This document shows, in pieces, positions 4,804-23,340 of a DNA stretch of 60,652 bases. Every line of letters starts with the position of its first letter. The stretch's first letter is position 1. The notes below the pieces were generated by a model. It saw only the letters and a program-made list of their open reading frames with translations, was not told the origin of the DNA and did no database searches. The stretch lies in IMG/VR virus record IMGVR_UViG_3300017989_000126, positions 1 through 60,652 of that record; one strand, written 5' to 3'. The position numbers and the translations under genes were made by a program. This stretch comes from a virus.

Positions 4804-6330
4804 ATGTGCATGTCTAATCTTGAATTAAATGCTGAGGAAATTTTAGAAAGCGCCATAGAAAAAAGCAGAGAGATCATGAACTCTCAGCCACAAGTAGCAG
4901 AAATTATCCTCAAACAACTTATCAAATGTAAACCAGATCACCCTGAAGGATTGCAACTTTTGGGATTATTGGAACATAGACTAGGCAAACATGCCGAAGC
5001 TATTGAAATCATTCAGGTTGCCATAGAAGTAGACCCGGAATGTGCTGAAAACCATAATAATATTGGGTTGGCCTATGCTTGTTTGGGCGAATATGAAAAA
5101 TCTATTGAACACATAGAAAAAGCTGTTGAGATGAAAACGGATCATTATGTTTTCCTCAATAATTTAGCTCTACAATATCGACAAGTTGGCAGATACGATG
5201 AGTCTATTGATACATTCCAAAAAGCTATCGATGCCAATAACACGCCGCAAATTTGGGGCAATCTTGGTGGTGTGTGGGGAGAATTGGGTAATCTCGAAAA
5301 ATCAGAAGAGTGTTTCATGAATGCTTTGGAAATTGATCCAAATTATCCTGCGGCTCATGTAGACATAGCTTTCATAAATCATCTAAGAGGAAATTGGGAA
5401 AAAGGATTTGAAGAATACGAATGGCGATTCGATCACTTTCCTCAACTTCAATTTTACAAAAAAGTCTATGACCAAGAAAAAAAATGGGATGGAAAAGCCG
5501 ACCTCAAAGGCAAAACAATTATTCTATACGGAGAACAAGGTCTGGGCGACACAATTCAGTTTGTTCGTTATGTAAAAGTTCTTAAAGAAAAAGGTTGTCA
5601 TGTTATTGTACATTGCCCAAGTTCTTTAAACGCTGTGATCTCCAGATGTGAAGGTGTTGATGAAATTGTCAATCGTGACATTGTCACAGGCAAAGGTGAT
5701 CCTTTGCCTGAATATGATTACCAATGTTCTTTATTGAGTTTGCCACATTTGCTTAAAGTGGTTGATGTAGGAACATCACCGTACATTTCACCTATAGTTA
5801 CTCTGAATACTAAAGAGCAATATCCTGACACATTCAACATAGGGATTTGCTGGGCAGGCAGCCCTGCACACCCCAAAGATGCAGAAAGGTCCATTAAGCT
5901 AAAACACTTCAAGCCTATTCATGATATACCTAATGTCAAGCTGTTCAGTCTTCAAGTTGACATGAGAAAAAGAAGTTACGTGAACACTCTTTCTAATTTA
6001 GATCTCACTGAAGATTGCGATGATATAAGAATTGTAGATATGACGAACATGATCCAGACATTTGATGATTCTGCAACAATCATTAGCGGCCTTGATCTTG
6101 TAATTAGTTGTGATACTGCATTGGTTCATTTAGCTGGTGCCATGGGTGTGCCTTGTTGGGCTTTAATTCCATACAGTCCTGATTGGCGGTGGGGAATTGA
6201 AGGCGATAAAACAAACTGGTATGAATCTTTGACATTGATACGTCAAAAAGAACGAGGTGATTGGACAGGTGTATTTGAGGAAGTAAAAGACCGACTTAAC
6301 AAAAACTTTTCTTTACCGGAGACAACATGA
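4804..6330 (+). CDS. TPR-repeat protein with a GT9-like glycosyltransferase domain
   Basis: 508 residues. Residues about 40-200 are tandem tetratricopeptide repeats (ENHNNIGLAYACLGEYEKS and similar). From about 235 there is a heptosyltransferase/GT9-like domain with LYGEQGLGDTIQFVRYVK near its start, 'GICWAGSP' in the middle and 'ISCDTALVHLAGAMGVP' toward the end. These fused proteins are common in bacteria, where they act on surface glycans or proteins. Here it could glycosylate virion or host surface components (inference). It overlaps the next gene by four bases, so the two are co-translated. The start could also be ATG 4810; neither has a clear ribosome site. Confidence 0.8.
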   Translation: MCMSNLELNAEEILESAIEKSREIMNSQPQVAEIILKQLIKCKPDHPEGLQLLGLLEHRLGKHAEAIEIIQVAIEVDPECAENHNNIGLAYACLGEYEKSIEHIEKAVEMKTDHYVFLNNLALQYRQVGRYDESIDTFQKAIDANNTPQIWGNLGGVWGELGNLEKSEECFMNALEIDPNYPAAHVDIAFINHLRGNWEKGFEEYEWRFDHFPQLQFYKKVYDQEKKWDGKADLKGKTIILYGEQGLGDTIQFVRYVKVLKEKGCHVIVHCPSSLNAVISRCEGVDEIVNRDIVTGKGDPLPEYDYQCSLLSLPHLLKVVDVGTSPYISPIVTLNTKEQYPDTFNIGICWAGSPAHPKDAERSIKLKHFKPIHDIPNVKLFSLQVDMRKRSYVNTLSNLDLTEDCDDIRIVDMTNMIQTFDDSATIISGLDLVISCDTALVHLAGAMGVPCWALIPYSPDWRWGIEGDKTNWYESLTLIRQKERGDWTGVFEEVKDRLNKNFSLPETT

Positions 6331-7217
6331 AAATATTTTACAGGATCAGTGACAACAGTTATGCGAAACAAAAGCTTCCCGGTGCAGATAAAGAAACATG
6401 TCTCACAAATTTTGTTAAAGCATTTGAAGATGTAATTTTCACAAAAGAGACATTAGAGGGAAAGAACGAACCTCCTATTTTCATTATAGCAGATCGCTGT
6501 ACTCGAAAAACGAATAAAATGCTTACAGAAACCGGTCTTCCCATGAAGATCACTGATTTAGGTAATGCTGGATCATTGCACTATGCTTTAGATTTAGCCC
6601 TTGAAGAATGTCGTCCCGGAGAATTGGCATATTTTGTTGAAGATGATTATCTTCATTTAGGAAATGCTTCCCAAGTTCTCAGAGAAGGCATGATGATCTC
6701 TGATTACCTAACATTATATGATCATCCTGACAAATACACAAATTTGTATGACATGGGAGAAACATCAAAAGTTGTTAGAACTAACAGTAGTCATTGGAGA
6801 TATACGGTTAGTACATGTATGACATTTGCTGTTAAAACAGACATTCTTGCTGAAGATATTGAGATCTTCAAAAAGCACACAGACACTTTTGAAACAGGCA
6901 ATGAAGGGGAACATCCTCTTGATCATGAAATTTTTGTGGAGTTACGTGAGAAGGGTAGAAAATTGGCTGTTTCTATTCCGGGCGTTGCTTGTCATGTTGA
7001 TATGACGCTTTCTGCAAAAGCTAGTAGAAACATGATGGAACCTTGGGCCATTGAAACCATGACAAGGGATTTGGAAGAGCAGGTAAAAAGCGTTTACAAA
7101 CGCCTAAAGCCAGAAGATGTAAAAAGGTTTGCTGATTTGGAGTCTTCTGTTCTCAAAAGTCAGGGGTGGAATCGCCTGATAAGACTTGATGCATTATTGA
7201 AAAAATGCGAAGGATAA
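6327..7217 (+). CDS. Putative GT-A fold glycosyltransferase
   Basis: 296 residues, translationally coupled (ATGA overlap) to the TPR/GT9 gene. The motif YFVEDDYLH near residue 115 looks like the acidic metal/nucleotide-sugar site of GT-A enzymes, and residues 60-100 (GNAGSLHYALDLAL) resemble the preceding nucleotide-binding segment. A later 'DHEIF' and 'PGVACHVD' fit the acceptor side. There is no membrane segment. The pair probably builds a glycan together; the substrate cannot be told from sequence. Confidence 0.6.
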   Translation: MKIFYRISDNSYAKQKLPGADKETCLTNFVKAFEDVIFTKETLEGKNEPPIFIIADRCTRKTNKMLTETGLPMKITDLGNAGSLHYALDLALEECRPGELAYFVEDDYLHLGNASQVLREGMMISDYLTLYDHPDKYTNLYDMGETSKVVRTNSSHWRYTVSTCMTFAVKTDILAEDIEIFKKHTDTFETGNEGEHPLDHEIFVELREKGRKLAVSIPGVACHVDMTLSAKASRNMMEPWAIETMTRDLEEQVKSVYKRLKPEDVKRFADLESSVLKSQGWNRLIRLDALLKKCEG

Positions 7218-7290
7218 TAATATTTGAATAAATTCTCCTCAAACTCTATATACTTCATACCGTTGCAACAGGTACAGGAGAATTAGAACT

Positions 7291-7512
7291 ATGGATTTTA
7301 TCACTTGGTGCCAAGACAGAGGACTGGCAATCCCAACTGTAGATGAACAGCGTGAACGAACTGGTGTAAGAGGTCAGTATCCTGATGGATACGTTCGCAG
7401 CCAGTATCCTGATGGATATTTCGCTCCGACAACAGCTACATGGAAACTCGACCTTCAAAATGCCGAAAAGGTTAAGAACAAGAAGGACGCTGGAGAAACG
7501 CCGGTCAAGTAA
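7291..7512 (+). CDS. Small protein with a tandem QYPDGY repeat
   Basis: 73 residues starting MDFITWCQDRGL, with an AGGAG ribosome site upstream. Two copies of a 17-base identical segment (7375-7391 and 7402-7418, period 27 bases) encode QYPDGY twice in succession. The tail is Lys-rich. It is followed directly by a terminator. The aromatic FITW start loosely resembles the leaders described for virion proteins but has no clear (L/I)xE site. Function is unknown. Confidence 0.6.
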   Translation: MDFITWCQDRGLAIPTVDEQRERTGVRGQYPDGYVRSQYPDGYFAPTTATWKLDLQNAEKVKNKKDAGETPVK

Positions 7513-7976: not shown

Positions 7977-8486
7977 ATGAAGTATCAAGAGAAAATGAAT
8001 CGATATGAAAAGAAGCAACTTCAGGAGAAAATTCTGGATGAAGCTTTGGCAGGCAAAGGGTTGTATCTTTACGAAAACAATTCCGATGCCGATTTAACAC
8101 TTCCTCGACCCACACAAAGTGGGAGGCGTGAAATTGGAGGAAGAGAACAATTTCAGGGTGATGACTACTATATGCAGTTAGTTCGTACAGGATTTCTGAG
8201 ATTGATTAAAGAACTCCAACCACCAACGCCAGCGGCACCTCCGCAAACAAACATTCAAGAACAAAATGAGGTAACAATGACAGAACAAAAACAAGAAAAG
8301 CTTATTCTGGATCAACCAGACACAGTTACAACTGAAGGAACTGTTGAGAATGTAGCTCAACCACAACAGTGCGATAAAGGCACAGAATGCTGTGGGGGAA
8401 CTGGACATGGGCAACCACAGCCAGAAGTTCTTCTCAATGAAGCTCCTGTTGATGACGATGACAGCTTCATGATCATTGAAGACTGA
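7977..8486 (+). CDS. Hypothetical protein with acidic C-terminal tail and possible internal start
   Basis: 169 residues. The N-terminal half is helical and charged, the middle is Pro/Gln-rich, a Cys pair region (CDKGTECCGG) follows, and the end is acidic (DDDDSFMIIED). GGGG precedes the ATG. A second good ribosome site (GAGGTAACA before ATG 8278) could make a 69-residue product in the same frame containing only the Cys and acidic parts. The acidic tip with a hydrophobic end recalls protein-interaction tails such as those of single-strand DNA-binding proteins, but no OB fold is visible. A terminator follows. Confidence 0.6.
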   Translation: MKYQEKMNRYEKKQLQEKILDEALAGKGLYLYENNSDADLTLPRPTQSGRREIGGREQFQGDDYYMQLVRTGFLRLIKELQPPTPAAPPQTNIQEQNEVTMTEQKQEKLILDQPDTVTTEGTVENVAQPQQCDKGTECCGGTGHGQPQPEVLLNEAPVDDDDSFMIIED

Positions 8487-10793: not shown

Positions 10794-10822
10794 TTTACAG
10801 ATTGAGTAATCTGCCGTAGAAT
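10794..10822 (+). promoter_or_regulatory. Sigma70-type promoter for the nicotinamidase/vWA region
   Basis: TTTACA (10794-10799), 17 bases, TAGAAT (10817-10822), then GTTTGTGTA. The same architecture and the same downstream GTTTGTGTA occur at 18383-18411 ahead of the kinase gene, suggesting that both units are turned on together. Confidence 0.6.
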
Positions 10823-10877
10823 GTTTGTGTAAAAAGCTGATTTTGAATCCGCCAGAACAATTTTTGGAGATCGAACA

Positions 10878-11741
10878 ATGAAACGTGTGGACCTGATCGT
10901 TATTGACGGTCAAAATGACTTCCTTGACCCAAAAGGTGCCCTTTATGTGCAGGATGCCGACAAGGAAGCAGAAAAGCTGGCGGCGATGATCGACCGTTTG
11001 GGCAACAAAATCTACAAGATTCACGCCACGCTGGACAGTCACTATCCAGTTGATATTGCTCATCCAGTCATGTGGATTGATTCACACGGAAACAATCCTG
11101 ATCCTTTCACTATCATCACAGCCGATGATGTTCGAAATGGAAAATGGCGTTGTACTCTGTTGGGTAACATTCCAGACCCAGTTACAGGTGAAACAATCAG
11201 CTATCAACAGCGTTGCCTGAACTACGTGGAAGAACTGGAAAAGAATGCACGATATCCACTGTGCATTTGGCCTCCGCACTGTCTGATTGGTTCATGGGGA
11301 CACAACGTGTATCCACCTCTTTTCGAGGCATACACACGTTGGATCGAAAAGAGTCGATCACCATGGGTTGACTACGTTGTCAAAGGCGACAACGTGTGGA
11401 CCGAACATTATTCTGCTATCAAAGCAGATGTACCTGATCCTTCTGATCCAAGAACGCAGCTTAATGCTGACCTGTTGAACACAATCAACAAAGCAGACAT
11501 TGTTCTTTGGTCTGGTTGGGCTGGATCGCACTGTCTCGCCAATACTGGCAATGATGTTGAATCATTCCCGGCTGGTGATGAAATCTACAAGAAGTCAATT
11601 CTTCTTGAAGACCTGAGTGCTCCGGTGACTTCCCCTATTACGGATGTGAATGACATGTTCGCTCAGTTGCGAACTGACTTCATCGACAACATGCGGAATA
11701 AGGGAATGCAGATCATGAACAGCACTGATGTTCTCACATAA
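10878..11741 (+). CDS. pncA: Nicotinamidase (isochorismatase-like cysteine hydrolase)
   Basis: 287 residues. It should hydrolyse nicotinamide to nicotinate, the first step of Preiss-Handler salvage. The triad is visible: D10 in VIDGQNDF, K169 in VVKGDN and C219 in GWAGSHC. A metal site like that of known nicotinamidases is present (D53, H55, H62, H70). It is longer than the usual 180-220 residues because of inserts between about 75 and 135. GGAG precedes the ATG and a sigma70 promoter lies upstream. Nicotinate phosphoribosyltransferase, NadD and NadE follow within 8 kb. Other isochorismatase-family substrates are possible, but context favours nicotinamide. Confidence 0.8.
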   Translation: MKRVDLIVIDGQNDFLDPKGALYVQDADKEAEKLAAMIDRLGNKIYKIHATLDSHYPVDIAHPVMWIDSHGNNPDPFTIITADDVRNGKWRCTLLGNIPDPVTGETISYQQRCLNYVEELEKNARYPLCIWPPHCLIGSWGHNVYPPLFEAYTRWIEKSRSPWVDYVVKGDNVWTEHYSAIKADVPDPSDPRTQLNADLLNTINKADIVLWSGWAGSHCLANTGNDVESFPAGDEIYKKSILLEDLSAPVTSPITDVNDMFAQLRTDFIDNMRNKGMQIMNSTDVLT

Positions 11742-11785
11742 CATCAGTCTTTCATTCACACACTTCACAATTTTGGAGAAAAGAT

Positions 11786-12535
11786 ATGAGCAGCAAAGAT
11801 TTAAGTCAGGGACTCACTGACTTCGAAGTACCGGGTGCAAATTTTGGTTTTACCGGTGCGAACATTGATGATCTTGCATCAATGGAACAGACTCTTTACG
11901 GTCTGGTTGTGGATGAAAGTGGCTCAACAATGCCATTTCGACCAGAAATGTCTAAGGCCACAGTGGCAATTGTCGATTCTCTGAGAGAGAGCCCACGGGC
12001 AGACAATCTCATGTATCGAATGACCCACTTTTCTAATGGGGTTCGTGAAATTCACGGTTTCAAAGAACTTCAGAATTGTCATCCCGGCGATTATGACGAT
12101 CTGTTTGAACAGACAGGTCAGACTGATCTTTATGATGCAACACTTGAAATGTCAGAAGCTATTCGCATCTATGGCGAAAAGCTTGCCGAACAGAGCTATA
12201 TGGCCAATGGCATTCTTGTGGTGATCACCGATGGTTGTGATTTTCCCGGCTCTACTCACGGCATGGGTGATGTCAAACGATCTTTTGAGCAGGTTATTCA
12301 GGGTGAAATTCTTGAATCCATGAACACCATTTTGCTCGGAGTCAATATTCATGAGGCTCATGTAAAGCAGAAGCTTGAAGAGTTTCATCGAGAAGCTGGC
12401 TTCACTCAGTTTGAATGTGTCGAAGACGCTTCAAAATCAACAATGGCCAAACTGGCACAGTTTGTTTCTGACAGCGTCAGTTCTCAGTCGCAGGCTTTGG
12501 GAACTGGGGGAGCTTCACAAAGTCTTACGTTCTAG
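11786..12535 (+). CDS. von Willebrand factor A domain protein (TerY-like)
   Basis: 249 residues, essentially one vWA domain. The metal-ion-dependent adhesion site is intact: D43-x-S45-x-S47 in DESGS, a Thr in QTDLYDATLE near 111-120, and ITDG near 147. GGAG lies eight bases before the ATG. It sits between nicotinamidase and the NAD operon that also carries a PP2C phosphatase and a protein kinase. That is the gene set of the TerY-P module known from tellurite-resistance and stress gene clusters. It probably acts as a metal-dependent interaction scaffold for the phosphatase/kinase pair (inference). Confidence 0.8.
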   Translation: MSSKDLSQGLTDFEVPGANFGFTGANIDDLASMEQTLYGLVVDESGSTMPFRPEMSKATVAIVDSLRESPRADNLMYRMTHFSNGVREIHGFKELQNCHPGDYDDLFEQTGQTDLYDATLEMSEAIRIYGEKLAEQSYMANGILVVITDGCDFPGSTHGMGDVKRSFEQVIQGEILESMNTILLGVNIHEAHVKQKLEEFHREAGFTQFECVEDASKSTMAKLAQFVSDSVSSQSQALGTGGASQSLTF

Positions 12536-12570
12536 GAGAGTACCAACTGGGCAAGGCATTGCTTGGTTGC

Positions 12571-12654
12571 AGGATGAATACACGTGGAAGTTACAGTCTT
12601 CTGAATGGACTGGGTCTTAGCGGACCATGCAGGGTTCAAATCCCTGCCATCCGA
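12571..12654 (+). tRNA. Degenerate tRNA-like gene, type II (possibly tRNA-Ser, anticodon TGA)
   Basis: A perfect T-arm is present (CAGGG, loop TTCAAAT, CCCTG at 12630-12646). A long-variable-arm stem (GGTC 12613-12616 with GACC 12623-12626) precedes it. An anticodon stem (12595-12599 with 12607-12611, one U-G pair) encloses a 7-base loop reading TGA at 34-36. The acceptor pairs only five of seven (12571-12577 with 12647-12653), position 33 is C instead of T, and the D-arm is unclear. CCA is not encoded, so a CCA-adding enzyme would be needed. It could be a decayed tRNA or another structured RNA ending at the terminator that follows. Confidence 0.4.
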
Positions 12655-12665
12655 AATCTCCTTTA

Positions 12666-12700
12666 ACACACCGGGGCACCTCCCCCGGTGTGTTGTTTTT
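12666..12700 (+). terminator. Strong intrinsic terminator
   Basis: ACACACCGGGG pairs with CCCCGGTGTGT over a short loop and is followed by a T-run. It ends the nicotinamidase/vWA/tRNA-like unit before the invaded pncB region. Confidence 0.9.
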
Positions 12701-12714
12701 TCAGGAAAAGTGCT

Positions 12715-12762
12715 ATGAACAATCTCATCTCCAGATCGCTTTTCGACAACGACCTGTATAAG
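12715..12762 (+). pseudogene. Orphaned 5' stub of the original pncB
   Basis: ATG 12715 begins a short reading frame MNNLISRSLFDNDLYK, which resembles the N-terminus of the intact PncB downstream (VRSILDSDLYKFTMM). The stub diverges after DLYK, and about 40 bases later the GIY-YIG endonuclease gene begins. The simplest reading is that the endonuclease inserted into the 5' end of pncB and the displaced first codons remain upstream while a new N-terminus is used. Confidence 0.6.
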
Positions 12763-12800
12763 AATGACAAAAACTTATACAAAACAAACTACTATAGTGT

Positions 12801-13481
12801 ATGGAACATTTCATCTATGCACTAAAACAACAAGGTAGCGAATTGCCTTTCTATATTGGAAAATCAAACAATCCAAAGAAGCGGAAAAAACGCCATCTTT
12901 ATGATGCAAAGAACTTGATGCTGAATTACCCAGTTCATAACAAATTGAGAAAGCTGTTAAGAGACGGACTTGGAATTGATCTTGAAATTCTGGAATCGAA
13001 GCTAACCGAAGATGAAGTTGATGATAGGGAGGTTTATTGGATTTCTTTTTATCGTACCAAAACCAAATTGTGTAATTTAGCCAATGGTGGAGAAGGCGGC
13101 AAAGGGTTGACCGAAGAGACAATTGAAAAAATAAAGAAAGCCAACATTGGACAAAAACGATCTGAAGAAACTCGAAAACGAATAAGTGATTCCCGTAAAG
13201 GGATTGTATTTTCAAAAGAACACAAACAGAATCTTTCAAAAGCACGGAAGAAAAGAATTGTAACTGAAGAAACTCGTCGGAAAACAAGTGAAACCTCTAC
13301 TGGTTCGATTAACATCAAGAAATATAAACTTACTGATCCAAACGGTGGGATTCACTTCACTGACAGAGGGTTGTCAGATTTTTGTCGCAAGAACAATTTA
13401 ACACCAGCTAATTTGTCAAAAGTTCTAAAGGGCGAACGCACACACCATAAAGGTTGGAGGATTGAATATGTCGAACCATGA
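12801..13481 (+). CDS. GIY-YIG homing endonuclease with NUMOD3-type DNA-binding repeats
   Basis: 226 residues. An N-terminal GIY-YIG nuclease domain (residues 3-95) has FIYALKQQG and FYIGKS strands, an Arg in the downstream helix and the EVYWISFYRT motif. Then come Lys/Arg-rich NUMOD3-like repeats (GQKRSEETRKRISDSRKG and relatives) and a C-terminal helix-turn-helix (residues about 185-215). It lies between a pncB 5' stub and the functional pncB, and its last 14 bases overlap the pncB start, whose ribosome site (GGAGG) is inside this gene. This marks a homing insertion into pncB without an obvious intron. Confidence 0.85.
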   Translation: MEHFIYALKQQGSELPFYIGKSNNPKKRKKRHLYDAKNLMLNYPVHNKLRKLLRDGLGIDLEILESKLTEDEVDDREVYWISFYRTKTKLCNLANGGEGGKGLTEETIEKIKKANIGQKRSEETRKRISDSRKGIVFSKEHKQNLSKARKKRIVTEETRRKTSETSTGSINIKKYKLTDPNGGIHFTDRGLSDFCRKNNLTPANLSKVLKGERTHHKGWRIEYVEP

Positions 13482-14646
13482 CCCCGCTGTTCGATCAATA
13501 TTAGATTCGGACTTATACAAATTTACAATGATGGCAGCAGTCTTGAAGCACTACGAAAACACACCGGTTCAGTATCGATTTAGCAATCGTCGGAAAGAAG
13601 GTAAATTCAATAATGCTTTTGTTTATGAATTTGAATCTGAAATTGATCGTCTTTGTGGATTAAAAGTAGAAGATAAAGAACTAGATTGGTTTTCTAAAAC
13701 CTGTCCTTTTCTCACGGATCAGTATTTCGAATTTCTGCGAAACTACCGTTTTAACAAAAATGAACTTAGATGGTCAGTTGAAGATGGTGAATTAAACCTG
13801 TCTGTCAATAGCTCATGGGAACTAGGTATTTTGTGGGAAGTACCTCTTATGAGCATAATTTCAGAATGCTTCTTTCGTACATGTGACACTGAATGGGAGT
13901 TTAATGTTCTTGAGCAAGAAAAAAGAATTCGAGACAAAGCTAAAATTCTAACCGATGTTACATTTGCAGACTTCGGCACTCGACGCCGAAGGTCTTATGA
14001 TGTTCAAGATTTGGTTGTAAAAACACTTGTGAATTGTGCTCCAAATTTTGTAGGCACAAGCAACGTCTCACTCGCCATGAAGCACAACACCAAGCCAATT
14101 GGAACTTTAGCACATGAGTGGATCATGGCGACCAGCGTTCTCATGGGACTTCGCCACGCCAACAAGTTTGCACTGGATGCTTGGAGTGAAGTATTCAACG
14201 GCGATTTGGGAATTGCATTAACGGACACTTATGGAAGCAAAGCTTTCTTCGAGGATTTTGACGGATATCTGGCTCGATTGTTTGATGGAGTTCGTCATGA
14301 TAGCGGCGATCCTTTTGAATTTGCCAGAAAAGCGATCACTCACTACAAGTCACTGGGAATCAATCCCATGTCAAAAACCATCGTGTTTAGCGACGGTTTG
14401 ACAGCCAAACTTGCTGCGGAAATCAACGAAAGATTCAAAGATGTCATCCGATGCTCTTTCGGCATCGGAACTCACTTCACGAATGATTTCCATAACAGCA
14501 AGGCTCTGAACATGGTCATCAAACTTTGGTCTTGTGAAGGGGTTCCACTGGTGAAGTTGGGAGATGACGAAGGGAAAGCCATTGGCGATCCTGATGCCGT
14601 TCGAGTTGCTCGATGGGTGTTCAACGACAAACCACTGGACAATTAA
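13468..14646 (+). CDS. pncB: Nicotinate phosphoribosyltransferase
   Basis: 392 residues, the normal PncB length. It converts nicotinate and PRPP to nicotinate mononucleotide. Conserved blocks are seen in order: SILDSDLYKFTM, FRNYRFN, LWEVPLMSIISE, DFGTRRRRS, FVGTSNV, GTLAHEWIMA, GIALTDTYG, VRHDSGDPFEFA, KTIVFSDGL and SFGIGTHFTND. ATG 13468 with GGAGG seven bases upstream is the best start; TTG 13462 is also in frame. The N-terminal 15 or so codons replace the stub left at 12715 after the endonuclease insertion. The next gene starts two bases after the stop. Confidence 0.93.
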   Translation: MSNHDPAVRSILDSDLYKFTMMAAVLKHYENTPVQYRFSNRRKEGKFNNAFVYEFESEIDRLCGLKVEDKELDWFSKTCPFLTDQYFEFLRNYRFNKNELRWSVEDGELNLSVNSSWELGILWEVPLMSIISECFFRTCDTEWEFNVLEQEKRIRDKAKILTDVTFADFGTRRRRSYDVQDLVVKTLVNCAPNFVGTSNVSLAMKHNTKPIGTLAHEWIMATSVLMGLRHANKFALDAWSEVFNGDLGIALTDTYGSKAFFEDFDGYLARLFDGVRHDSGDPFEFARKAITHYKSLGINPMSKTIVFSDGLTAKLAAEINERFKDVIRCSFGIGTHFTNDFHNSKALNMVIKLWSCEGVPLVKLGDDEGKAIGDPDAVRVARWVFNDKPLDN

Positions 14647-14647
14647 A

Positions 14648-14977
14648 ATGGAACAACTTCTCTGTCACTTGCTTGGAGACTATCTCCTGCAAACATCATG
14701 GATGGCTTTGAACAAAAGCAAGCGATGGTGGCCTGCAATTGTTCATGTGTCAATTTACACAAGCGTGTTCCTGTTGTTGACAACAAGCATCCCGGCATTG
14801 CTTGTCATTGGCGGAACACACCTGCTGATTGATCACTATCAGTTTCCCAAGATTTGGTTCAATGCAGTTCGTGGAAAAGAGGATTCCCCGGAATGGTTTC
14901 TGATGTGGCTTTACGTCATTCAGGACAACTCTTGGCATCTGATCATTAACTTCTTGGCGTTGAGGTATCTGACATGA
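14648..14977 (+). CDS. DUF3307-type small membrane protein
   Basis: 109 residues. It starts with LLCHLLGDYLLQTSWMA, the HLLGDYLLQ pattern of DUF3307, followed by hydrophobic helices at about 28-55 and 85-108 and an 'HLLIDHYQF' motif between them. It lies between pncB and nadE with almost no spacing (overlapping nadE by four bases), so it is part of the NAD operon. DUF3307 proteins are found in phages and bacteria without a settled function. A role in precursor transport is possible but not shown. Confidence 0.75.
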   Translation: MEQLLCHLLGDYLLQTSWMALNKSKRWWPAIVHVSIYTSVFLLLTTSIPALLVIGGTHLLIDHYQFPKIWFNAVRGKEDSPEWFLMWLYVIQDNSWHLIINFLALRYLT

Positions 14978-16950
14978 ACAAATATGGATTTGTAAGAGTT
15001 ACTGCTGTTTCACCTCGGGTTTACATTGGCAATCCAGAACAAAACCTCTTCGAAGCACATGGTGAACTTGCTCGTTCAGACGATTCAGATATTATTTTGT
15101 TTCCTGAACTCAGCATGACAGGATACACTTGCGGTGATTTGTTTGGTCAGGAAAGTTTGACTAACAATGCGTTGAAAGAAACGGTTAGGTTAGCTGATGG
15201 TGTTGGCAACCAGTTGGTTGTTGTTGGATTACCATTTGTGTTTGAATCTAATCTCTACAACTGTGCTGCTGTCTTGAACAATGGTCGCATCGTGGGGATT
15301 GTCCCCAAGCAATATTTGCCCACCTACAAAGAGTTTTACGAAAAGAGGTGGTTTCAGGCTGGTGAAGGTCTACCAAACACAGAAGTTGAAATTGAAGGTC
15401 GTGCTGTTCTTTTTGGGCCGAATCTCCTATTCAGCTACGAAGGAGTCAAAGTTGGCATTGAAATTTGTGAAGATGTCTGGATGCCCATTCCACCTAGTTG
15501 TTATCACACTATTGCTGGTGCAAACGTCATCCTCAATCTCTCTGCCAGCAATGAGACCGTTGGAAAATCTGATTACCGCACAGATTTGGTGAAAAATCAG
15601 TCTGGTCGCTGCGTGTGTGCTTATGCATACGCCAGTTCCGGGCCAATGGAATCCACCTCTGATCTTGTGTTTGGTGGACATTCTCTAATCGCTGAAAACA
15701 GTCATATTCTGGCTGAGTCACCTCGTGTGGGCAAAGGTAATCACAGTGCATCTGTGATTACAGCAGATGTTGACTATGAAAAACTGAATCATGAGAGACG
15801 CTCATCTACGTCTTTCGGTGACTCTGCATCATGTGTCACTAATCACGACACAATTCCCATTGAACTCGTAAATCGTCCTGAAGTTGTTACTCCGATCAAA
15901 CGAGTGATTGCCAAACATCCATTTGTCCCAAGTGACAAAGAGCGGTTGCGGGATCGTTGTGAGGACATCTTCGGCATTCAGACAATGGGTCTGGTGGGTC
16001 GATTGGCCAACATCAGAGGTCCAATCAATATTGGAATCTCTGGTGGTCTCGACTCAACGTTGGCATTGCTGGTTGCCATCAAAGCCTGTGATCACTTCAG
16101 GTTTGATCACAGGCGAATTCAAGGCATCACCATGCCCGGATTCGGAACCACCAAGAAGACCAAGAAGAATGCCAAGAAACTGATGAAGGGTCTGGGGATT
16201 ACTCAGAAAGAAATAGACATCAGGCCGATGGCCCTTCAGGTGTTCAATGACATGGAACACACTCCATTTGGCATCGGCAGCACACCTTTGACTTTAGAAG
16301 ACCTTCAAGGTGGGCTTGAAAGTCTTGAACCGGGTGCTCAGGACTTGGTATTTGAAAATGTGCAGGCACGTGTCAGAACCCTGACGCTGATGTCTCATGG
16401 GTTTGTTCTGGGAACCGGTGATCTCTCCGAGCTTGCTCTGGGCTGGTGCACCTACAACGGTGACCACATGAGCATGTATAACGTCAACTGTTCGATCCCA
16501 AAGACTCTGGTCAAGTTCTTGGTGGAGTATGTTGCCAACAATGATCCTGCCTTCAAAAAGGTCAAAGATACGTTGTTGGATATTGTGGACACTGAAATCT
16601 CTCCAGAACTTTTGCCACCCGGCAAAGACGGAGAGATCGCACAGTCCACAGAAGACAAACTTGGGCCTTACGAACTGCACGACTTCTTCCTGAGTCACTT
16701 CATTCGCAATGGTTCAAGCCCTCAGAAGATTCTTCTTTTGGCTTGTCAGGCATTTGAAAGTGATTACGAGCCTGACTTCATCAAAGTAACTCTCATCACT
16801 TTTTTGAAGAGATTCTTTGCAAATCAGTTCAAAAGAAATTGTGTGCCAGATGGCCCAAAAGTTGGATCAGTGAGTCTTTCGCCTCGTGGCGATTGGCGAA
16901 TGCCTTCTGACGCTGATGTCAGCATGTGGATTAAGGAACTTGAAGAATGA
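14974..16950 (+). CDS. nadE: Glutamine-dependent NAD+ synthetase
   Basis: 658 residues. It amidates nicotinate adenine dinucleotide to NAD+. The N-terminal nitrilase-type glutaminase domain has the catalytic E45 (FPELSMTGYTCGD), K119 (PTYKEFYEKRWF) and C165 (GIEICEDVW). The C-terminal synthetase domain has the PP-loop SGGLDST at 356-362 and GTGDLSELALGWCTYNGDH further on. The length matches the bacterial two-domain enzymes. It is translationally coupled at both ends (four-base overlaps with DUF3307 and PP2C). With NadD two genes later, it completes nicotinamide to NAD+. Confidence 0.95.
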   Translation: MNKYGFVRVTAVSPRVYIGNPEQNLFEAHGELARSDDSDIILFPELSMTGYTCGDLFGQESLTNNALKETVRLADGVGNQLVVVGLPFVFESNLYNCAAVLNNGRIVGIVPKQYLPTYKEFYEKRWFQAGEGLPNTEVEIEGRAVLFGPNLLFSYEGVKVGIEICEDVWMPIPPSCYHTIAGANVILNLSASNETVGKSDYRTDLVKNQSGRCVCAYAYASSGPMESTSDLVFGGHSLIAENSHILAESPRVGKGNHSASVITADVDYEKLNHERRSSTSFGDSASCVTNHDTIPIELVNRPEVVTPIKRVIAKHPFVPSDKERLRDRCEDIFGIQTMGLVGRLANIRGPINIGISGGLDSTLALLVAIKACDHFRFDHRRIQGITMPGFGTTKKTKKNAKKLMKGLGITQKEIDIRPMALQVFNDMEHTPFGIGSTPLTLEDLQGGLESLEPGAQDLVFENVQARVRTLTLMSHGFVLGTGDLSELALGWCTYNGDHMSMYNVNCSIPKTLVKFLVEYVANNDPAFKKVKDTLLDIVDTEISPELLPPGKDGEIAQSTEDKLGPYELHDFFLSHFIRNGSSPQKILLLACQAFESDYEPDFIKVTLITFLKRFFANQFKRNCVPDGPKVGSVSLSPRGDWRMPSDADVSMWIKELEE

Positions 16951-17804
16951 ATACAGGATCGTTTTTTACCATTGGTAGCACTCACGTTGTTTGTGAAGAC
17001 TATGCCTTACATGGGGTCGCAGAAGATCCTTATGTGATTCTTTCTGATGGCTGCTCTAACGGAGGTGTGCGAATTGATACAGACTTTGGCTCTCGGCTAC
17101 TTTGCAAATCAGCCGAGAATCATTTGTCAATATTGCCATACAATTCATTTGGATTTAAAGAACGTGTCATTAGCACAACGGTGACACAAGTGCAAACTTA
17201 TTTCAACATGGATCTTGCATGCCTTACTGCTACTTTGCTGTTGGCTAGAAAATATGATGACTTCATTTACACCATGTTAATTGGAGATGGATATATTGGG
17301 GGAAAACGACGTGATGGACGATGGATGCTTTATGAAATAGAATATGAAAAAGGAGCACCTTATTACCTTAAATACAGTTGGAATCCCAAAGACAAAGAGG
17401 CTTATTTTAATCGATTTGGAAGCATTGGAACACTTAGAACCTTTTCTTGGAGAGAAGGTGGAGATATTGAAACATCCAGTATGGAATTTGATCTGAAAGA
17501 CGATCATCCAGAGCATTTTGAATTCGATTTTAAAATTGATGAATATGAATTTGTATTCATTGCTTCTGATGGATTGAGTCGTTTTTATCATCAGGCAACT
17601 ACGCCAGATAAATCAATGATTCCCATTCCGATAACAACCGTTGTGCCTATTTTGTATGGATTCAAAGGATATCAAACGTCATTTGTCGAAAGGCAAATGC
17701 ATTGGGTCATGAACACCAAAAAGCCAAGATCACTTTCTAAAACACTGGGCGTTGATGTAAAGTGTTCAGATGATTTCAGCACCGGAGTAATTCACTGTGG
17801 CTAA
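16947..17804 (+). CDS. PP2C-family protein phosphatase
   Basis: 285 residues. PP2C motifs in order are CEDYAL (motif I Asp), VILSDGCSNGG (motif II DG), a GDGYIGG segment, FIASDGLSRF and DDFSTGVI near the C-terminus. All metal-binding acidic positions appear present, so it should be active on phospho-Ser/Thr. It is inserted between nadE and nadD, overlapping both (4 and 8 bases). A predicted kinase lies just downstream and a vWA protein upstream, matching the TerY-P set. It may reverse the action of that kinase on NAD enzymes or host targets (inference). Confidence 0.85.
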   Translation: MNTGSFFTIGSTHVVCEDYALHGVAEDPYVILSDGCSNGGVRIDTDFGSRLLCKSAENHLSILPYNSFGFKERVISTTVTQVQTYFNMDLACLTATLLLARKYDDFIYTMLIGDGYIGGKRRDGRWMLYEIEYEKGAPYYLKYSWNPKDKEAYFNRFGSIGTLRTFSWREGGDIETSSMEFDLKDDHPEHFEFDFKIDEYEFVFIASDGLSRFYHQATTPDKSMIPIPITTVVPILYGFKGYQTSFVERQMHWVMNTKKPRSLSKTLGVDVKCSDDFSTGVIHCG

Positions 17805-18408
17805 ATTTGCGATTTTTGGAGGATCTTTTGATCCTCCCACATATGCACATAAAATGGCTGGAGAACTTGTCTATGCTGAAACAGACATAGATCAATTCTG
17901 GTACATGCCTTGTTGCAGCCACAAATTCAATAAAGACTCTGAAGATTCTTGTCATCGATTAACCATGGTAGAAAGAATGGTTTATCAGATAAACGAGAAC
18001 TACCAAGGATTTCCTTTTCGTGAATGCACTTACGAAATCGACAACAAAACCAAAGGCCATCTAATTGAAACGATGGAAGCTTTAGAAAAAGAAAATCCAA
18101 AAGATGAATTTGTGATCGTTGTGGGTTCAGATTGTGCCAATGATATCAAGAAAAAATGGCATCGTGGCAAGGAACTTATCGAACGATATCCATTCATTGT
18201 GTTGAAAAGAAGTGGATACGAATTGTTAGCTTCTTGGCCATACGAAAAACCAAATCAGGTTTTGGAATTTGGTGTAAGCTATAGCTCAACAACGCTTCGT
18301 AAAGCTTTATCAGAAGGCGATTTTGAGCACGCTCAACGAAGACTCTATCCTGCAATTTTCAATTACATTAAGAAGAACAAACTTTACAGTCAGGAAAACC
18401 AGACGTAA
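17797..18408 (+). CDS. nadD: Nicotinate-nucleotide adenylyltransferase
   Basis: 203 residues, usual length. It makes nicotinate adenine dinucleotide from nicotinate mononucleotide and ATP. The nucleotidyltransferase signature GGSFDPPTYAH at 9-19 is the (T/H)xxH variant, and VSYSSTTLRKAL near 166-177 is the C-terminal ISSTxxR motif. The start is GTG 17797, overlapping the phosphatase stop. Its 3' end contains the promoter of the kinase operon. Use of the nicotinamide mononucleotide form cannot be excluded, but PncB and a glutamine-dependent NadE point to the deamido route. Confidence 0.9.
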   Translation: MAKFAIFGGSFDPPTYAHKMAGELVYAETDIDQFWYMPCCSHKFNKDSEDSCHRLTMVERMVYQINENYQGFPFRECTYEIDNKTKGHLIETMEALEKENPKDEFVIVVGSDCANDIKKKWHRGKELIERYPFIVLKRSGYELLASWPYEKPNQVLEFGVSYSSTTLRKALSEGDFEHAQRRLYPAIFNYIKKNKLYSQENQT

Positions 18409-18411
18409 AAT
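18383..18411 (+). promoter_or_regulatory. Sigma70-type promoter for the kinase/SPFH unit
   Basis: TTTACA (18383-18388), 17 bases, TAAAAT (18406-18411), then GTTTGTGTA. It is the twin of the promoter at 10794 and lies at the 3' end of nadD. Confidence 0.6.
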
Positions 18412-18441
18412 GTTTGTGTACACTTTTACGGGAATACATTC

Positions 18442-20154
18442 ATGAAACTTACCATTCGAGGCACTGGTGATAAAGTCAATATCACCAAGACACATGTAGT
18501 CGCCAAAGGTGGTGAGGGTGTCATCTATATTAAAGATGGCGTTGTCTACAAAATCTGTCATGCTGGGAAAATGATTCCCGATGGAAAATTTCAAGAACTG
18601 GCTGTTCTCAATCATCCCAACATCATCAAGCCAGAGCAAGTTTTACTGGATTCTAAAGGAAAACCAGTTGGCTATACCATGAAGCTGGTTCCTAATTCAG
18701 TGCCACTTGCTCAAATTCTAACAAAATCTTACCGAGATCGAGAGAACGTTACATTCGATCAAATGGGTAAGTTAATACAGGATATTCGTGATGGCATTGA
18801 ACACATCCACTCCAAGGACATTCTCCAAGTAGATGGTAATGAGATGAACTACATGGTTTCGTTGGATTACGAAACTGTGTCATTCATTGATGTGAATAGT
18901 TTTCAAACCAAACATTATCCAGCAGAGGCTTTAATGCTAAGCGTGCGAGATTGGCACGTTGAAAAGAAAAACGGAGTCTACATTTGGACAGAGCTGAGTG
19001 ATTGGTTTTCTTTCGCAATTATCTCGTTCTACATGTGGACCGGAATTCATCCCTTCAAGGGAGCACATCCTCGTTTCAAAAATGTCAAAACGAGGATGGA
19101 AGATCAAATGAAGGCAAATGTTTCAGTTTTAAACTCTGAAACAAAATACCCTGCTGCTGCTGTTTATCCTTTTGATGTCATTCCTGATGTTTACATGCAG
19201 TGGTACAAAGCTCTGTTTGAACGTGGCGAACGACATCCGGCCCCACAGGACTTTCATGGCAAAATCCTTCTTGTCGCCAAAGTCAAAGAAATCAGTGGCA
19301 GTGATAACTTCGAAATCAAAGAAATTCATGATTTTGGGGAAATGCTGGTTGGTTTTATAGGTCGCCCCGGAACAGAGGTTTCTATTGGACCTGAACATGT
19401 GTTTGTAAATCAGGCCCCTAAGCCAAAACCATACAAGAAAATCCGTGCAGGCATTACAAATGTGATGCAAATTCCTGTCTCAGCTCATCTTGAGAACAAT
19501 ATCGTTCATTTGACAAATCTAAAAACTCAGGAAAAAATCGATTATCAAGGGAATGGAAGTGATCTGATGAGTTGCGAGGGGCGTTTGTACGTTCAAAGCA
19601 ATAATCGAATCGTTGAAATTCAATTCATTGAATCTGGCAAAAACATTATGGCGGCACCGAAAGTCGTTTGTGATATTTTGCCCAATGCAACGCAGATGTT
19701 TCAGGGAACAATCATCCAGTATCTGTTCGAAGGATACTTTGTCTCTGTATTCCCAAAATCAGGCATTGCTCAACAGTTCCATATTAAAGAACTTGATGAA
19801 TATCAAATTACTGAAGCGAAATATGAAAATGGGGTTCTGATGGTTGTTGGAATTTCCAAAGGCAAGTATGATCGCTTCGTGATCCGTTTTGAAGAAAGAT
19901 GGGGCAATTATGAAATAGCCCGTAAAATTGAAGACATCATTCCCACTGGTTTGAACTTCACAGTTCTGGAGAATGGGGTTTGTGTTTGTATTACGGAAGA
20001 AGAGAAAATCGAATTGTTCTCTTCCCGTTCGGGATCGCAAAATGTTAAATCGATCTCTGACCCGGTTATAGAAAGCGACATGAGGTTATGTCGAGTTGGG
20101 TCACAAGTTATGTTTGCCAAAGGCAACAAGCTGTTCAAGCTGTCTATGAAATAA
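18442..20154 (+). CDS. Protein kinase-like protein with C-terminal beta-rich domain (TerY-P type)
   Basis: 570 residues. The kinase lobe (about 15-260) shows a glycine-rich GGEG loop, VVYKIC with the ATP-binding Lys, VDGNEMNYMV as the catalytic loop (Asp..Asn) and FIDVNSFQT as the DFG-equivalent with DVN, then DWFSFAI of the APE-side helix. Residues about 290-570 form repeated beta strands, perhaps a propeller-like sensor. The divergent DFG and loop suggest an atypical but possibly active kinase. It follows PP2C and NadD and precedes two SPFH genes. Candidate substrates are the NAD enzymes, the SPFH proteins or host proteins; none is shown. Confidence 0.8.
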   Translation: MKLTIRGTGDKVNITKTHVVAKGGEGVIYIKDGVVYKICHAGKMIPDGKFQELAVLNHPNIIKPEQVLLDSKGKPVGYTMKLVPNSVPLAQILTKSYRDRENVTFDQMGKLIQDIRDGIEHIHSKDILQVDGNEMNYMVSLDYETVSFIDVNSFQTKHYPAEALMLSVRDWHVEKKNGVYIWTELSDWFSFAIISFYMWTGIHPFKGAHPRFKNVKTRMEDQMKANVSVLNSETKYPAAAVYPFDVIPDVYMQWYKALFERGERHPAPQDFHGKILLVAKVKEISGSDNFEIKEIHDFGEMLVGFIGRPGTEVSIGPEHVFVNQAPKPKPYKKIRAGITNVMQIPVSAHLENNIVHLTNLKTQEKIDYQGNGSDLMSCEGRLYVQSNNRIVEIQFIESGKNIMAAPKVVCDILPNATQMFQGTIIQYLFEGYFVSVFPKSGIAQQFHIKELDEYQITEAKYENGVLMVVGISKGKYDRFVIRFEERWGNYEIARKIEDIIPTGLNFTVLENGVCVCITEEEKIELFSSRSGSQNVKSISDPVIESDMRLCRVGSQVMFAKGNKLFKLSMK

Positions 20155-20164
20155 GGAGAACCTA

Positions 20165-21724
20165 GTGCGAGATTTCAGTGAAAATCCAATTGATGTACGC
20201 AATGCCATGAGGAAATTAGCCCCATGGATATTTGTCATTGGCATTGTGTTTATGGTTGGAATGACTTATCTCATCTATTCACAATTCCGAATCGATGTGC
20301 CAACCAAACATTTTGCCGTCCTGATCAAAAAGACCGGCAAAAATATTCCCAATGACGCAGAATGTGCCCCGGATGAATCTTACAAAGGGGTTCAAAAAGA
20401 GCTTCTATTGGAAGGGCGATATTTCCGCAACCCATTTGAATGGGACTGGGAAGTTCATCCCTATGATGAAATTGCGTCAAATGAACTTGGTGTACTTGTA
20501 AAGCTCAATGGCGAAAACCTCCCTTACAGACACTTTGTTGCGTCAAAAGATATTGAAAAGGGAATTGTCGAAGACGTGCTTCGACCGGGACGTTATCCAA
20601 TCCATCCCTACACCGAAAAACTTTTGCGATTCAAACCAATCACAATTCCTGCTGGACACAAAGGTGTTGTCACGTTACTAGCTGCTCCAATGCCAGAAAA
20701 TCCCAACGAACTTCTTGTAGAAGAAGGACGCCGTGGGGTTCAGAAAAAGACACTTGATCCCGGAACGTATTATGTGAACCCATATGTGACACGGATCAAT
20801 GAAATCGATTGTCGGTCTCAACGATTCAACCTTTCCGAAGGTGGTGACATGGGATTCCCGTCTCTGGACGGATTCTGGGTCCAATTGGATGGAATTGTTG
20901 AATTCCGTGTTAACCCCGAGAAAGCCGCTGAAGTTTTTGTGATCTACAATGAAACGTTCAATGACAAAAATGACATTGAACGAGTAGATGAAGAAATTGT
21001 CACAAAGATTATTCTTCCTAATGCAAGAAGTTTCTGCCGTTTGAAGGGGTCAAGCAACAAAGGTCGTGACTTTATCGGTGGCCAAACTCGTATTGAATTT
21101 CAGAAGGCTTTTGCAGAAGCAATGGAATCTGAATGTGAGCCTTTGGGTATTGAAATCGTCCAAGCTTTGATCACAAAGATTTATCCACCAGAAGCAATTG
21201 CTGGACCTGTTCGTGATCGTGAAGTTGCACGTCAGCAATTGCGACAGTATGGACAGCAGATTCTCCAACAGGAATCTGAGATCAAACTTGCTGTTGAAAA
21301 GCAAAAAGTTGTTCAAAGAACAGAACTGCGTGCTGCGGATCAATCTGTTGTAACGGAAACTGTGGCTGCTAAGCAGAAGCAGCAGGTTGCTGTCACTAAA
21401 GCAAATGAACAACGAGAAGTTGCCAGATTTAAACTTGATGCAGCAAAAGATGAAGCAGAAGCGATCATTGCTCGTGGAGAAGCTGCTGCTTCTGTTATCA
21501 AATTCGACAATGAAGCTATTGCTGCGGGTTGGGAGCGTGCCATCAAAGCCTTTGGTGGAGATGGAAGTGCATATGCTGATTATACTCTTTGGGAAAAGAT
21601 TGCACCGAGTTTTCGAAAAATCATGACCAATACAAACAACAGTCCTTTGATGGAACACTTCGGTTTGTCTGGCCCAACACCAGAAAAACCTGAAACTGTC
21701 GAACAAGCCACACCTGCTGAATAA
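20165..21724 (+). CDS. SPFH/Band 7 membrane protein, copy 1
   Basis: 519 residues. A transmembrane helix spans about residues 18-40. Repeated short beta modules with '(G)VL..LLxPGRY.(I/N)PY' patterns (GVQKELLLEGRYF, DVLRPGRYPIHPY, KTLDPGTYYVNPY) follow, then an SPFH domain (about 225-385) and an Ala/Glu/Gln-rich coiled coil (about 370-460). SPFH proteins oligomerise into membrane cages or microdomains. The start is GTG 20165 with AAGGAGAA upstream. It is 10 bases from the kinase and 32 bases from its paralog. The pair may build a hetero-oligomer at the host membrane. Confidence 0.85.
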   Translation: MRDFSENPIDVRNAMRKLAPWIFVIGIVFMVGMTYLIYSQFRIDVPTKHFAVLIKKTGKNIPNDAECAPDESYKGVQKELLLEGRYFRNPFEWDWEVHPYDEIASNELGVLVKLNGENLPYRHFVASKDIEKGIVEDVLRPGRYPIHPYTEKLLRFKPITIPAGHKGVVTLLAAPMPENPNELLVEEGRRGVQKKTLDPGTYYVNPYVTRINEIDCRSQRFNLSEGGDMGFPSLDGFWVQLDGIVEFRVNPEKAAEVFVIYNETFNDKNDIERVDEEIVTKIILPNARSFCRLKGSSNKGRDFIGGQTRIEFQKAFAEAMESECEPLGIEIVQALITKIYPPEAIAGPVRDREVARQQLRQYGQQILQQESEIKLAVEKQKVVQRTELRAADQSVVTETVAAKQKQQVAVTKANEQREVARFKLDAAKDEAEAIIARGEAAASVIKFDNEAIAAGWERAIKAFGGDGSAYADYTLWEKIAPSFRKIMTNTNNSPLMEHFGLSGPTPEKPETVEQATPAE

Positions 21725-21756
21725 CAAAAAGAAAATAAACGAAAGGATTATAAATC

Positions 21757-23340
21757 ATGAAATGGCGAACAAAGTTTCTGCTAACTTCACTTCTGATAAC
21801 AGTTATCGGAGCGTTTACATTACACTGGATGATTAACCGTGTTTATGTTGAGCCCGGTTACAGCTTGCAGCTTCGCTACAAAGGTTCACTGCTGGCTATG
21901 GTCGGCGTGCCTGTCAAGAAAGCCAAACCCGGACACTTTGCAGAAGAAGGTGAAGTCGGTGTTCTCAAAGAAATGCGTGGACCCGGACGGCACTTCTATT
22001 GCCCACTATGGTGGGAAACTGAAATCGTCCCAGACAAAATTGTAATGCCGGGACAAATCGCTGTTGTAAAGAGTAACCTTGGTGAGCCTCTTCCATCGGG
22101 TGAATACCTCGTGGAGGGTGATCTTGGAGAAACGAAACACAAAGGGATTTTGAGAAAATCTTTTGGTCCGGGACGTTATCGTGTGCATCCTTATGCATAT
22201 GAATTTGATGTCATCGAAAGACCTGTTCGAAGCGAAAATGGAAAACACGCTGGGTTTATTTCAATACCAACTGGTTATGTTGGTGTTGTGACAAACAAAG
22301 CATCAAATCCAATCACAGAAGAGCCAAAAGGTGTACTCGATGATGTTCTTCCTCCCGGTTTATATCCAATCAATGGACGTGAACAGGAAGTTGACATTGT
22401 TGAAATTGGATACCGTGAGGCATCTATCAACGTAAAAACTCAAGTTGAAGCTGATGGTTCTGTGAAGGTGGATGAAGCAGGTGAGCCTGTTATTGCCAGT
22501 TTGACAGAAGGAATTAACTTCCCAAGTAGCGATGGCTTTCCGATTCTAATGGACTTTACAGCAATTTGGGGAATTCTTCCTGATGCAGCGCCGAGAATTA
22601 TTCGAACATTCGGCAACATTGGTGCTGTAGAACAAAAAGTGGTGATGCCTCAAATTGAATCGATTTGTCGAAACAATGGCTCAGCCCACTCTGCTGTTGA
22701 TTTGCTTGTTGGTGAGTCTCGACAAAAATTCCAAGAAGACACTGAAATTGAATTTCACCGTGTTCTTGATGATAAGCAGATTCAACTTCTGTATGGTTTG
22801 GTGCGTCACATCTACATTCCGAAAGAAGTTCGTCAGCCAATTCAAACAGCATTTATTGCCGATGAATTAAAGTTGACTCGGGATCAGGAACAGATCACCA
22901 CGCAAAAAGAAGCTGAACTTCGTGAAATTGAAAAGCTGAAAGATGTGGAAGCTGAAAAAATTGATGCTGACACGAAGAAGCAGGTTGCTGAGATCATAGC
23001 ACTTGGTCAAAAGCAAGTTGGAGAAACCGAAGCTGAAACAATTCAATTGGTTGCTGAAATCGATAAAGAAACAGCCACAATTGAAGCTGAATCGACTGTG
23101 GTGATTGGTCAAGCCAAAGCTAAAGCAAACCAATTGGAAGAAGAAGCTAAAGCCCAATTGTTTGAATTGGCCGTACAAGCTTTCGAAAGACCGAATGCCT
23201 ACAATCGATATATCTTTGCCGATGGTTTGCCAGAAGATCTGGAATTTGAATTTCTCTATGCAGGCGAAGGTACTCTTTGGACTGACATGAAGAACTTTGG
23301 AATTCGAGGGAACGTCGATCTGAACCCTGAAAAGAAATAA
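21757..23340 (+). CDS. SPFH/Band 7 membrane protein, copy 2
   Basis: 527 residues, a diverged paralog of the preceding gene. A transmembrane helix at about 6-26 is followed by the same PGRY/PY beta modules (GPGRHFYCP, GPGRYRVHPY, PPGLYPINGR), an SPFH domain and a Glu/Ala/Lys-rich coiled coil (about 375-475) ending with an aromatic tail. AAAGGA precedes the ATG. A terminator follows, closing the kinase/SPFH unit. Bacterial SPFH pairs such as HflK/HflC act as membrane-protease regulators and phage-related factors, a useful functional analogy only. Confidence 0.85.
   Translation: MKWRTKFLLTSLLITVIGAFTLHWMINRVYVEPGYSLQLRYKGSLLAMVGVPVKKAKPGHFAEEGEVGVLKEMRGPGRHFYCPLWWETEIVPDKIVMPGQIAVVKSNLGEPLPSGEYLVEGDLGETKHKGILRKSFGPGRYRVHPYAYEFDVIERPVRSENGKHAGFISIPTGYVGVVTNKASNPITEEPKGVLDDVLPPGLYPINGREQEVDIVEIGYREASINVKTQVEADGSVKVDEAGEPVIASLTEGINFPSSDGFPILMDFTAIWGILPDAAPRIIRTFGNIGAVEQKVVMPQIESICRNNGSAHSAVDLLVGESRQKFQEDTEIEFHRVLDDKQIQLLYGLVRHIYIPKEVRQPIQTAFIADELKLTRDQEQITTQKEAELREIEKLKDVEAEKIDADTKKQVAEIIALGQKQVGETEAETIQLVAEIDKETATIEAESTVVIGQAKAKANQLEEEAKAQLFELAVQAFERPNAYNRYIFADGLPEDLEFEFLYAGEGTLWTDMKNFGIRGNVDLNPEKK

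Follow-up and report, generated by a model that had tools for sequence, protein, structure and literature searches.

Genes of the locus and their layout

The stretch of DNA analysed here (the window) comprises all 60,652 nucleotides of the IMG/VR record IMGVR_UViG_3300017989_000126, a 60.7-kb piece of the genome of a large T4-like phage, as judged from the virus record and from its tail sheath, gp15 and baseplate genes. Our subject is a group of genes for salvage of nicotinamide adenine dinucleotide (NAD+) and for protein phosphorylation, which lie on the plus strand in the order pncA, vWA, a GIY-YIG gene, pncB, DUF3307, nadE, PP2C, nadD and kinase (Table 1). A first-pass annotation of the sequence had listed these genes, and all that it named were found on that strand, the enzymes and vWA with intact active-site residues, while the GIY-YIG gene and a tRNA-like element had gone unmentioned. 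A second contig, IMGVR 3300029258_004850, matches the window at 99.5-100% from within the PP2C gene onward and thus supports the assembly for that part.

Table 1. Features of the NAD+-salvage and phosphorylation locus, in window coordinates
Feature	Position	Strand	Basis
Promoter-like site TTTACA-17-TAGAAT with downstream AATGTTTGTGTA, 5' of pncA	10794-10831	+	consensus match only
pncA, nicotinamidase (predicted), cassette gene 1	10878-11741	+	PDB profile match, Foldseek, conserved catalytic residues
vWA adaptor, complete MIDAS, conserved Ser-rich C-terminal tail, cassette gene 2	11786-12535	+	family matches PF00092/PF13519
tRNA-like element between vWA and pncB, outside the cassette	12559-12655	+	ARAGORN
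Intrinsic terminator dividing pncA-vWA from pncB	12664-12695	+	13-pair stem and T run; fold z = -6.3
Orphan former 5' end of pncB (MNNLISRSLFDNDLYK...)	12715-12825	+	resembles the N-terminus of relatives' PncB
GIY-YIG/NUMOD3 homing endonuclease, inserted at pncB start	12801-13481	+	PF01541, PF07460, TIGR01453, phrog_314
pncB, nicotinate phosphoribosyltransferase, re-made start	13468-14646	+	TIGR01514, NF003704 above cut-off
DUF3307 membrane protein, passenger	14648-14977	+	PF11750 3.5e-8
nadE, glutamine-dependent NAD+ synthetase	14974-16950	+	NF002730
PP2C phosphatase, cassette gene 3	16947-17804	+	PF13672 6e-7
nadD, nicotinate-nucleotide adenylyltransferase	17797-18408	+	TIGR00482; motifs
Promoter-like site TTTACA-17-TAAAAT with AATGTTTGTGTA, 5' of kinase	18383-18420	+	consensus match only
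Ser/Thr kinase ending in a predicted beta-propeller, cassette gene 4	18442-20154	+	PF00069 5e-7

The predicted route from nicotinamide to NAD+

PncA, PncB, NadD and NadE make up the deamidating (Preiss-Handler) route of NAD+ salvage, and the claim that all four are present was borne out by profiles, fold and motifs. PncA of the window gave no Pfam match when searched alone; the profile of its family found yeast nicotinamidase Pnc1 as the best PDB match (2h0r, 8e-17), along with other nicotinamidases. Its structural model (predicted local distance difference test score, pLDDT, 95) had Pnc1 and the Acinetobacter and Leishmania nicotinamidases as top Foldseek matches. Residues D10, D53, H55, H134, K169 and C219 are conserved in phages and bacteria, and about 70 phage relatives and 44 bacterial ones keep the catalytic Asp/Lys/Cys and the metal ligands almost without exception. 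By sequence and modelled fold PncA is a nicotinamidase, a divergent one whose activity is predicted.

PncB scored 410 bits with the TIGR01514 equivalog model (cut-off 270), which classifies it as a nicotinate phosphoribosyltransferase (NAPRTase) and not as NAMPT. NadE scored 807 bits with NF002730 (cut-off 473), has a glutaminase domain and keeps its catalytic residues invariant. NadD lies just below the cut-off of TIGR00482 (95 bits against 112; 6e-27) and carries the TxxH and SSTxxR motifs; we assign it on these grounds as an adenylyltransferase of nicotinate mononucleotide (NaMN), its preference for NaMN over nicotinamide mononucleotide (NMN) being predicted only. Judged from its genes, the phage encodes the whole route, from nicotinamide through nicotinate, NaMN and nicotinate adenine dinucleotide to NAD+. 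In a related phage recovered from two samples (L004 and L005), nadD (12863-13462) contains two TAG codons in frame, one or both of them at a conserved Trp position, so that it may be either a pseudogene or a gene with a suppressed stop.

The vWA, PP2C and kinase proteins

Searches with the vWA or PP2C sequence of the window alone returned nothing or little (for vWA, no domain match), whereas alignment-based searches succeeded, the vWA family profile matching PF00092 at 5e-6. Searches of PDB sequences with the profiles of vWA and PP2C brought no useful match. In phages and bacteria alike, conservation extends to the metal-ion-dependent adhesion site (MIDAS) of vWA and its C-terminal tail, FVSxSISSQSQALGTGGPSQ, to D34, G35, D114, G115, D208 and D275 of PP2C, and to K37, D131, N136 and D150 of the kinase. 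The kinase model (pLDDT 90) contains an all-beta, propeller-like part at about residues 290-570, and neither a conserved Cys set nor a zinc ribbon nor an OB fold was found at the C-terminus in the sequence or in the predicted model.

The first-pass annotation had taken this trio for the TerY-P module. TerY-P consists of vWA, PP2C and a kinase whose C-terminus is a zinc ribbon or, in the stand-alone modules of defence, an OB fold (PMC11090510). The PP2C agrees with that proposal; the vWA has a MIDAS but may or may not be specifically akin to TerY, a TerF-like model being matched by one member of its family only. The kinase C-terminus lacks the defining part, and we rejected the assignment for this reason.

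Nicotinamidase and the signalling trio form a conserved four-gene cassette in phages

Searches of IMG/VR with the kinase and vWA alignments yielded 74 and 45 loci, respectively. What stays constant among them is the unit pncA-vWA-PP2C-kinase on one strand, of which the IMG/VR phage contigs hold 68 distinct complete copies; order and strand are kept in 47 of 48 long contigs (L067 has pncA last, as have L047 and L064). Active-site residues of all four genes are intact and near-invariant in phages and bacteria. The position of pncB, nadE and nadD, on the other hand, varies: they are inserted inside the cassette in the window and its lineage, stand beside it in others, and are absent nearby in many. 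Among NadE relatives in IMG/VR, the gene order of the window was found in the divergent phages L004 and L006, and without pncB in L007.

Because the order recurs in divergent phages and in bacteria, the arrangement is not due to chance. The annotation had seen a pathway and a trio as two interleaved sets; the interleaving is real, but the nicotinamidase gene belongs to the signalling cassette itself as the fixed partner of vWA, while pncB, nadE and nadD are variable partners.

Losses from the cassette look modular. In L002, a single deletion has removed PP2C after about codon 40, nadD and nearly all of the kinase gene; pncA-vWA-pncB-nadE are retained, and the first 40 or so PP2C codons are fused to the kinase tail (12130-12344). 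L003 has neither PP2C nor kinase, and its vWA (6768-7424) has lost the MIDAS, which suggests relaxed selection on this protein once its partners were gone. None of the phage isolates carries the cassette; in the named collection it is confined to three metagenomic huge phages.

The cassette is linked to NAD genes in phages

All 2107 open reading frames (ORFs) around 72 phage cassettes were clustered with no prior choice of genes. The commonest neighbours were NAPRTase (27 loci), NAD synthetase (27), Nudix proteins (20) and NadD (18), followed by RNA ligase (9), NADAR-type proteins (9) and NAD-dependent DNA ligase (8); the NrtR DNA-binding domain was present in 7 of 21 phage Nudix neighbours. 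Minus-strand clusters (phage cluster 8 and bacterial cluster 5) were rejected as genes, as they are antisense ORFs within the cassette. When 48 long contigs and two named huge phages were considered, NAPRTase occurred in 31 of the 50, NAD synthetase in 36 and NadD in 20. Of 34 phage contigs, 23 have NAD synthetase no more than 5 kb from the cassette, where 2.9 would be expected; for NAPRTase the figure is 15 of 29 (2.4 expected), and for ribonucleotide reductase (RNR), used as a control, it is 0 of 26 (2.0 expected). Moreover, the kinase tree requires at least 26 changes between having and lacking a NAD gene nearby, which indicates that the association was repeatedly remade or lost and is not one inherited coincidence. 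The link between cassette and NAD genes is well supported, and the recurrence in relatives that the annotation had proposed to look for is widespread in phages and bacteria.

Very divergent NAPRTase-like proteins (PF04095 at about 1e-5 or below detection) were also seen beside NAD synthetase and pncA, at 3411-4859 in L068, 4097-5590 in L070 and similar places.

The cassette is also a bacterial module

When genomes were scanned with the kinase profile, 80 cellular loci were found, 64 of which have 3 kb or more of upstream sequence and could be assessed. Of these 64, 53 carry all four cassette genes in the phage order and on one strand; carriers include Parcubacteria, Acidobacteria, Myxococcota, Rhodoferax, cultured Bradyrhizobium (L208, L209 and L188) and others. 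PP2C-kinase fusions, considered as an explanation for the apparent absence of PP2C from many bacterial loci, were not found in a domain-level check. At 37 of the 64 loci pncB, nadE, nadD or an NrtR-type regulator lies within about 8 kb, and the leading bacterial neighbours are NrtR, PncB, NadE and NadD (the antisense artefact cluster set aside); in the NrtR cluster, each of the 30 members scanned contains NrtR_WHD, the NrtR DNA-binding domain. In the Parcubacteria L176 (413-kb contig) and L184, nrtR and pncA-vWA-PP2C-kinase-pncB-nadE stand in a row, and Armatimonadetes L141 (1.36-Mb contig) has pncA-vWA-PP2C-kinase-nadE. Misbinned phages may be among the "cellular" contigs, L143 being a candidate with a kinase very close to a phage kinase; this is unlikely for megabase contigs and isolates. 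On the kinase tree phage and cellular sequences are interleaved, with at least nine forced changes of phage/cell label. Widespread as it is in phages, the system is not phage-specific but a bacterial module as well.

Transcription signals and other features of the locus

The tight packing described by the annotation from pncB to nadD holds: 1 nt separates pncB from DUF3307, and overlaps of 4, 4 and 8 nt join DUF3307 to nadE, nadE to PP2C and PP2C to nadD, with a gap of 33 nt before the kinase gene. Nevertheless, the stretch from pncA to the kinase gene is probably not one transcription unit, because a strong terminator stands between vWA and pncB and promoter-like sites precede pncA and the kinase gene. 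Both sites score 10 of 12 consensus matches, and the 12-mer AATGTTTGTGTA occurs in the window in just two exact copies, one at each. Judging from these consensus matches, pncA and the kinase gene, which open and close the cassette, may be under common control. Directly 3' of the kinase gene are two tandem SPFH/Band-7 proteins (20165-23340), which may belong to its transcription unit. The tRNA-like element (ARAGORN type Cys-aca, with a good T arm) is located directly 5' of the terminator; an Rfam scan of the window gave no match at the gathering score, this element included, and it is probably a decayed tRNA.

Within 12715-13530, the GIY-YIG gene splits the start of pncB. An apparent old 5' end, MNNLISRSLFDNDLYK, has been left upstream, the homing endonuclease is followed by a new start that has a GGAGG site of its own (MSNHDPAVRSILDSDLYKFTMM), and ACTTATACAAA is repeated at both ends of the insertion. 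The DUF3307 gene had no match in the relatives' loci compared with the window. Upstream of the NAD genes the window encodes a TPR protein with a glycosyltransferase-9-like end (4804-6330); this gene and its neighbours (6327-7217 and 7977-8486) are kept at that place in L003, L007 and L009. Farther away, on the minus strand, lies a histidine kinase gene with PAS and an ethylene-receptor-like N-terminal domain (53082-54521; PF25487 3e-25).

A proposed phosphorylation switch on NAD+ salvage and its alternatives

Since the cassette is conserved at 68 phage and 53 of 64 bacterial loci, has NAD genes as its neighbours and lies near them in excess of expectation, we consider it reasonably probable that the locus represents the phage version of a bacterial module controlling NAD+ salvage, in which a phosphorylation switch acts on the path from nicotinamide to NAD+. 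The target of phosphorylation, the direction of control and the role in infection are the parts of this proposal that we infer. In such a scheme, the beta-propeller of the kinase would be its sensing or docking part, and kinase and PP2C would together determine whether the vWA adaptor, perhaps at its Ser-rich tail, or the enzymes are phosphorylated. The adaptor might then open or close the entry step, PncA, and perhaps later enzymes too. Nicotinamide released by NAD+ consumers, be they host NADase defences or the phage's own reactions, would be recycled to NAD+ on demand, and the phage would carry the module to hold or restore NAD+ during infection.

Several observations weigh against this proposal. 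Many phages carry the cassette without a NAD gene in the available sequence (the contigs are often partial), pncB-nadE-nadD occur without the cassette in L009, and NAD synthetase is present in two of five cassette-less huge phages, a size-matched control too small for assessing co-occurrence; neither the cassette nor the NAD genes thus strictly require the other. The proximity statistics treat contigs as independent despite shared descent, and the targets of kinase and PP2C could lie elsewhere. On another view, the NAD genes are plain metabolic cargo raising NAD+ for replication, with the signalling genes as mere neighbours acting on other phage or host targets. The two kinds of separate occurrence just mentioned (cassette alone, and NAD genes alone in L009) speak for it, as does the NAD-dependent DNA ligase beside eight cassettes. 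Yet PncA is a fixed cassette member, pncB, nadE and nadD are interleaved inside the cassette, and the proximity of NAD genes recurs in bacteria, which makes this the least likely of the explanations weighed here.

Slightly less improbable, though still unlikely, is a TerY-P-like stress or defence module, with nicotinamidase as one exchangeable effector, that would serve against phages in bacteria and for rival exclusion in phages, the NAD genes replacing spent NAD+. TerY-P and stand-alone anti-phage modules do contain triads of vWA, PP2C and Ser/Thr kinase (PMC11090510), and exchange between phages and cells has been repeated. The kinase, however, has neither zinc ribbon nor OB fold, the only PADLOC matches were generic kinase ones, and in bacteria it is genes of NAD metabolism and NrtR, and not those of restriction or defence, that lead among the neighbours. 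A more serious possibility, which we hold tentatively, is a strict counter-defence operon, restoring NAD+ by the deamidated route against NAD-depleting immunity, with the signalling genes as infection-timed regulators. On one hand, the route is complete in the window, NARP1 restores NAD+ in phages (PMC12774641) and NADAR-type genes lie near nine phage cassettes. On the other hand, bacteria have the module on their chromosomes too, together with NrtR, so this is not its sole or original job. Counter-defence overlaps with the proposed salvage switch, which leaves the purpose in infection open.

Taken more broadly, the salvage switch would be an undescribed regulatory system common to bacteria and huge phages, in which propeller kinase, PP2C and vWA control a nicotinamidase gate, serving NAD+ homeostasis in bacteria and captured repeatedly by huge phages to hold host NAD+; we give this wider version about an even chance. 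To our knowledge, no targets of vWA/PP2C/kinase triads are known, and if the proposal is true, they gain a concrete and testable metabolic one.

Comparison with known systems

The present cassette resembles TerY-P in that a vWA with MIDAS, a PP2C and a Ser/Thr kinase are encoded together as a phosphorylation switch, and by this analogy it may work in a similar way. It differs in its predicted kinase C-terminus, a beta-propeller in place of zinc ribbon or OB fold, and in having nicotinamidase as a fixed fourth gene and NAD genes as neighbours.

Known phage systems for NAD+ salvage share with the window the general task. NARP2 is an amidated, NAMPT-type route. The jumbo-phage systems of NAPRTase and NMN adenylyltransferase are likewise amidated, NAMPT-type NAD salvage (PMC7824862), whereas the route of the window is deamidating. 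NARP1, made up of Adps and Namat, also rebuilds NAD+ from nicotinamide in phages, but it links ADP-ribose pyrophosphate (ADPR-PP) to nicotinamide in two steps, with no deamidation (PMC12774641), while the window has a deamidating route of four enzymes, with a PncB-type enzyme and signalling genes. No gene resembling phosphoribosyl pyrophosphate (PRPP) synthetase was found among the ten locus proteins scanned, and PncB is a NAPRTase equivalog. A term search found no mention of nicotinamidase or of a vWA/PP2C/kinase cassette in PMC7824862 or in the viral NAD survey PMC9503650, and in the open-licence literature searched we found no description of nicotinamidase combined with PP2C, vWA, kinase and NrtR; judged from these texts, we provisionally regard the cassette as novel.

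Transcription factors, NrtR among them, are the main known controllers of bacterial NAD+ salvage. The loci described here resemble NrtR-regulated salvage operons, in which nrtR stands beside pncA, pncB and nadE; the control known for those operons is transcriptional, and the present loci add a Ser/Thr phosphorylation cassette. If our interpretation is true, NAD+ salvage would have a post-translational layer across bacteria, Parcubacteria included, and huge phages, and a deamidating, regulated route would join the known ways in which phages rebuild NAD+.

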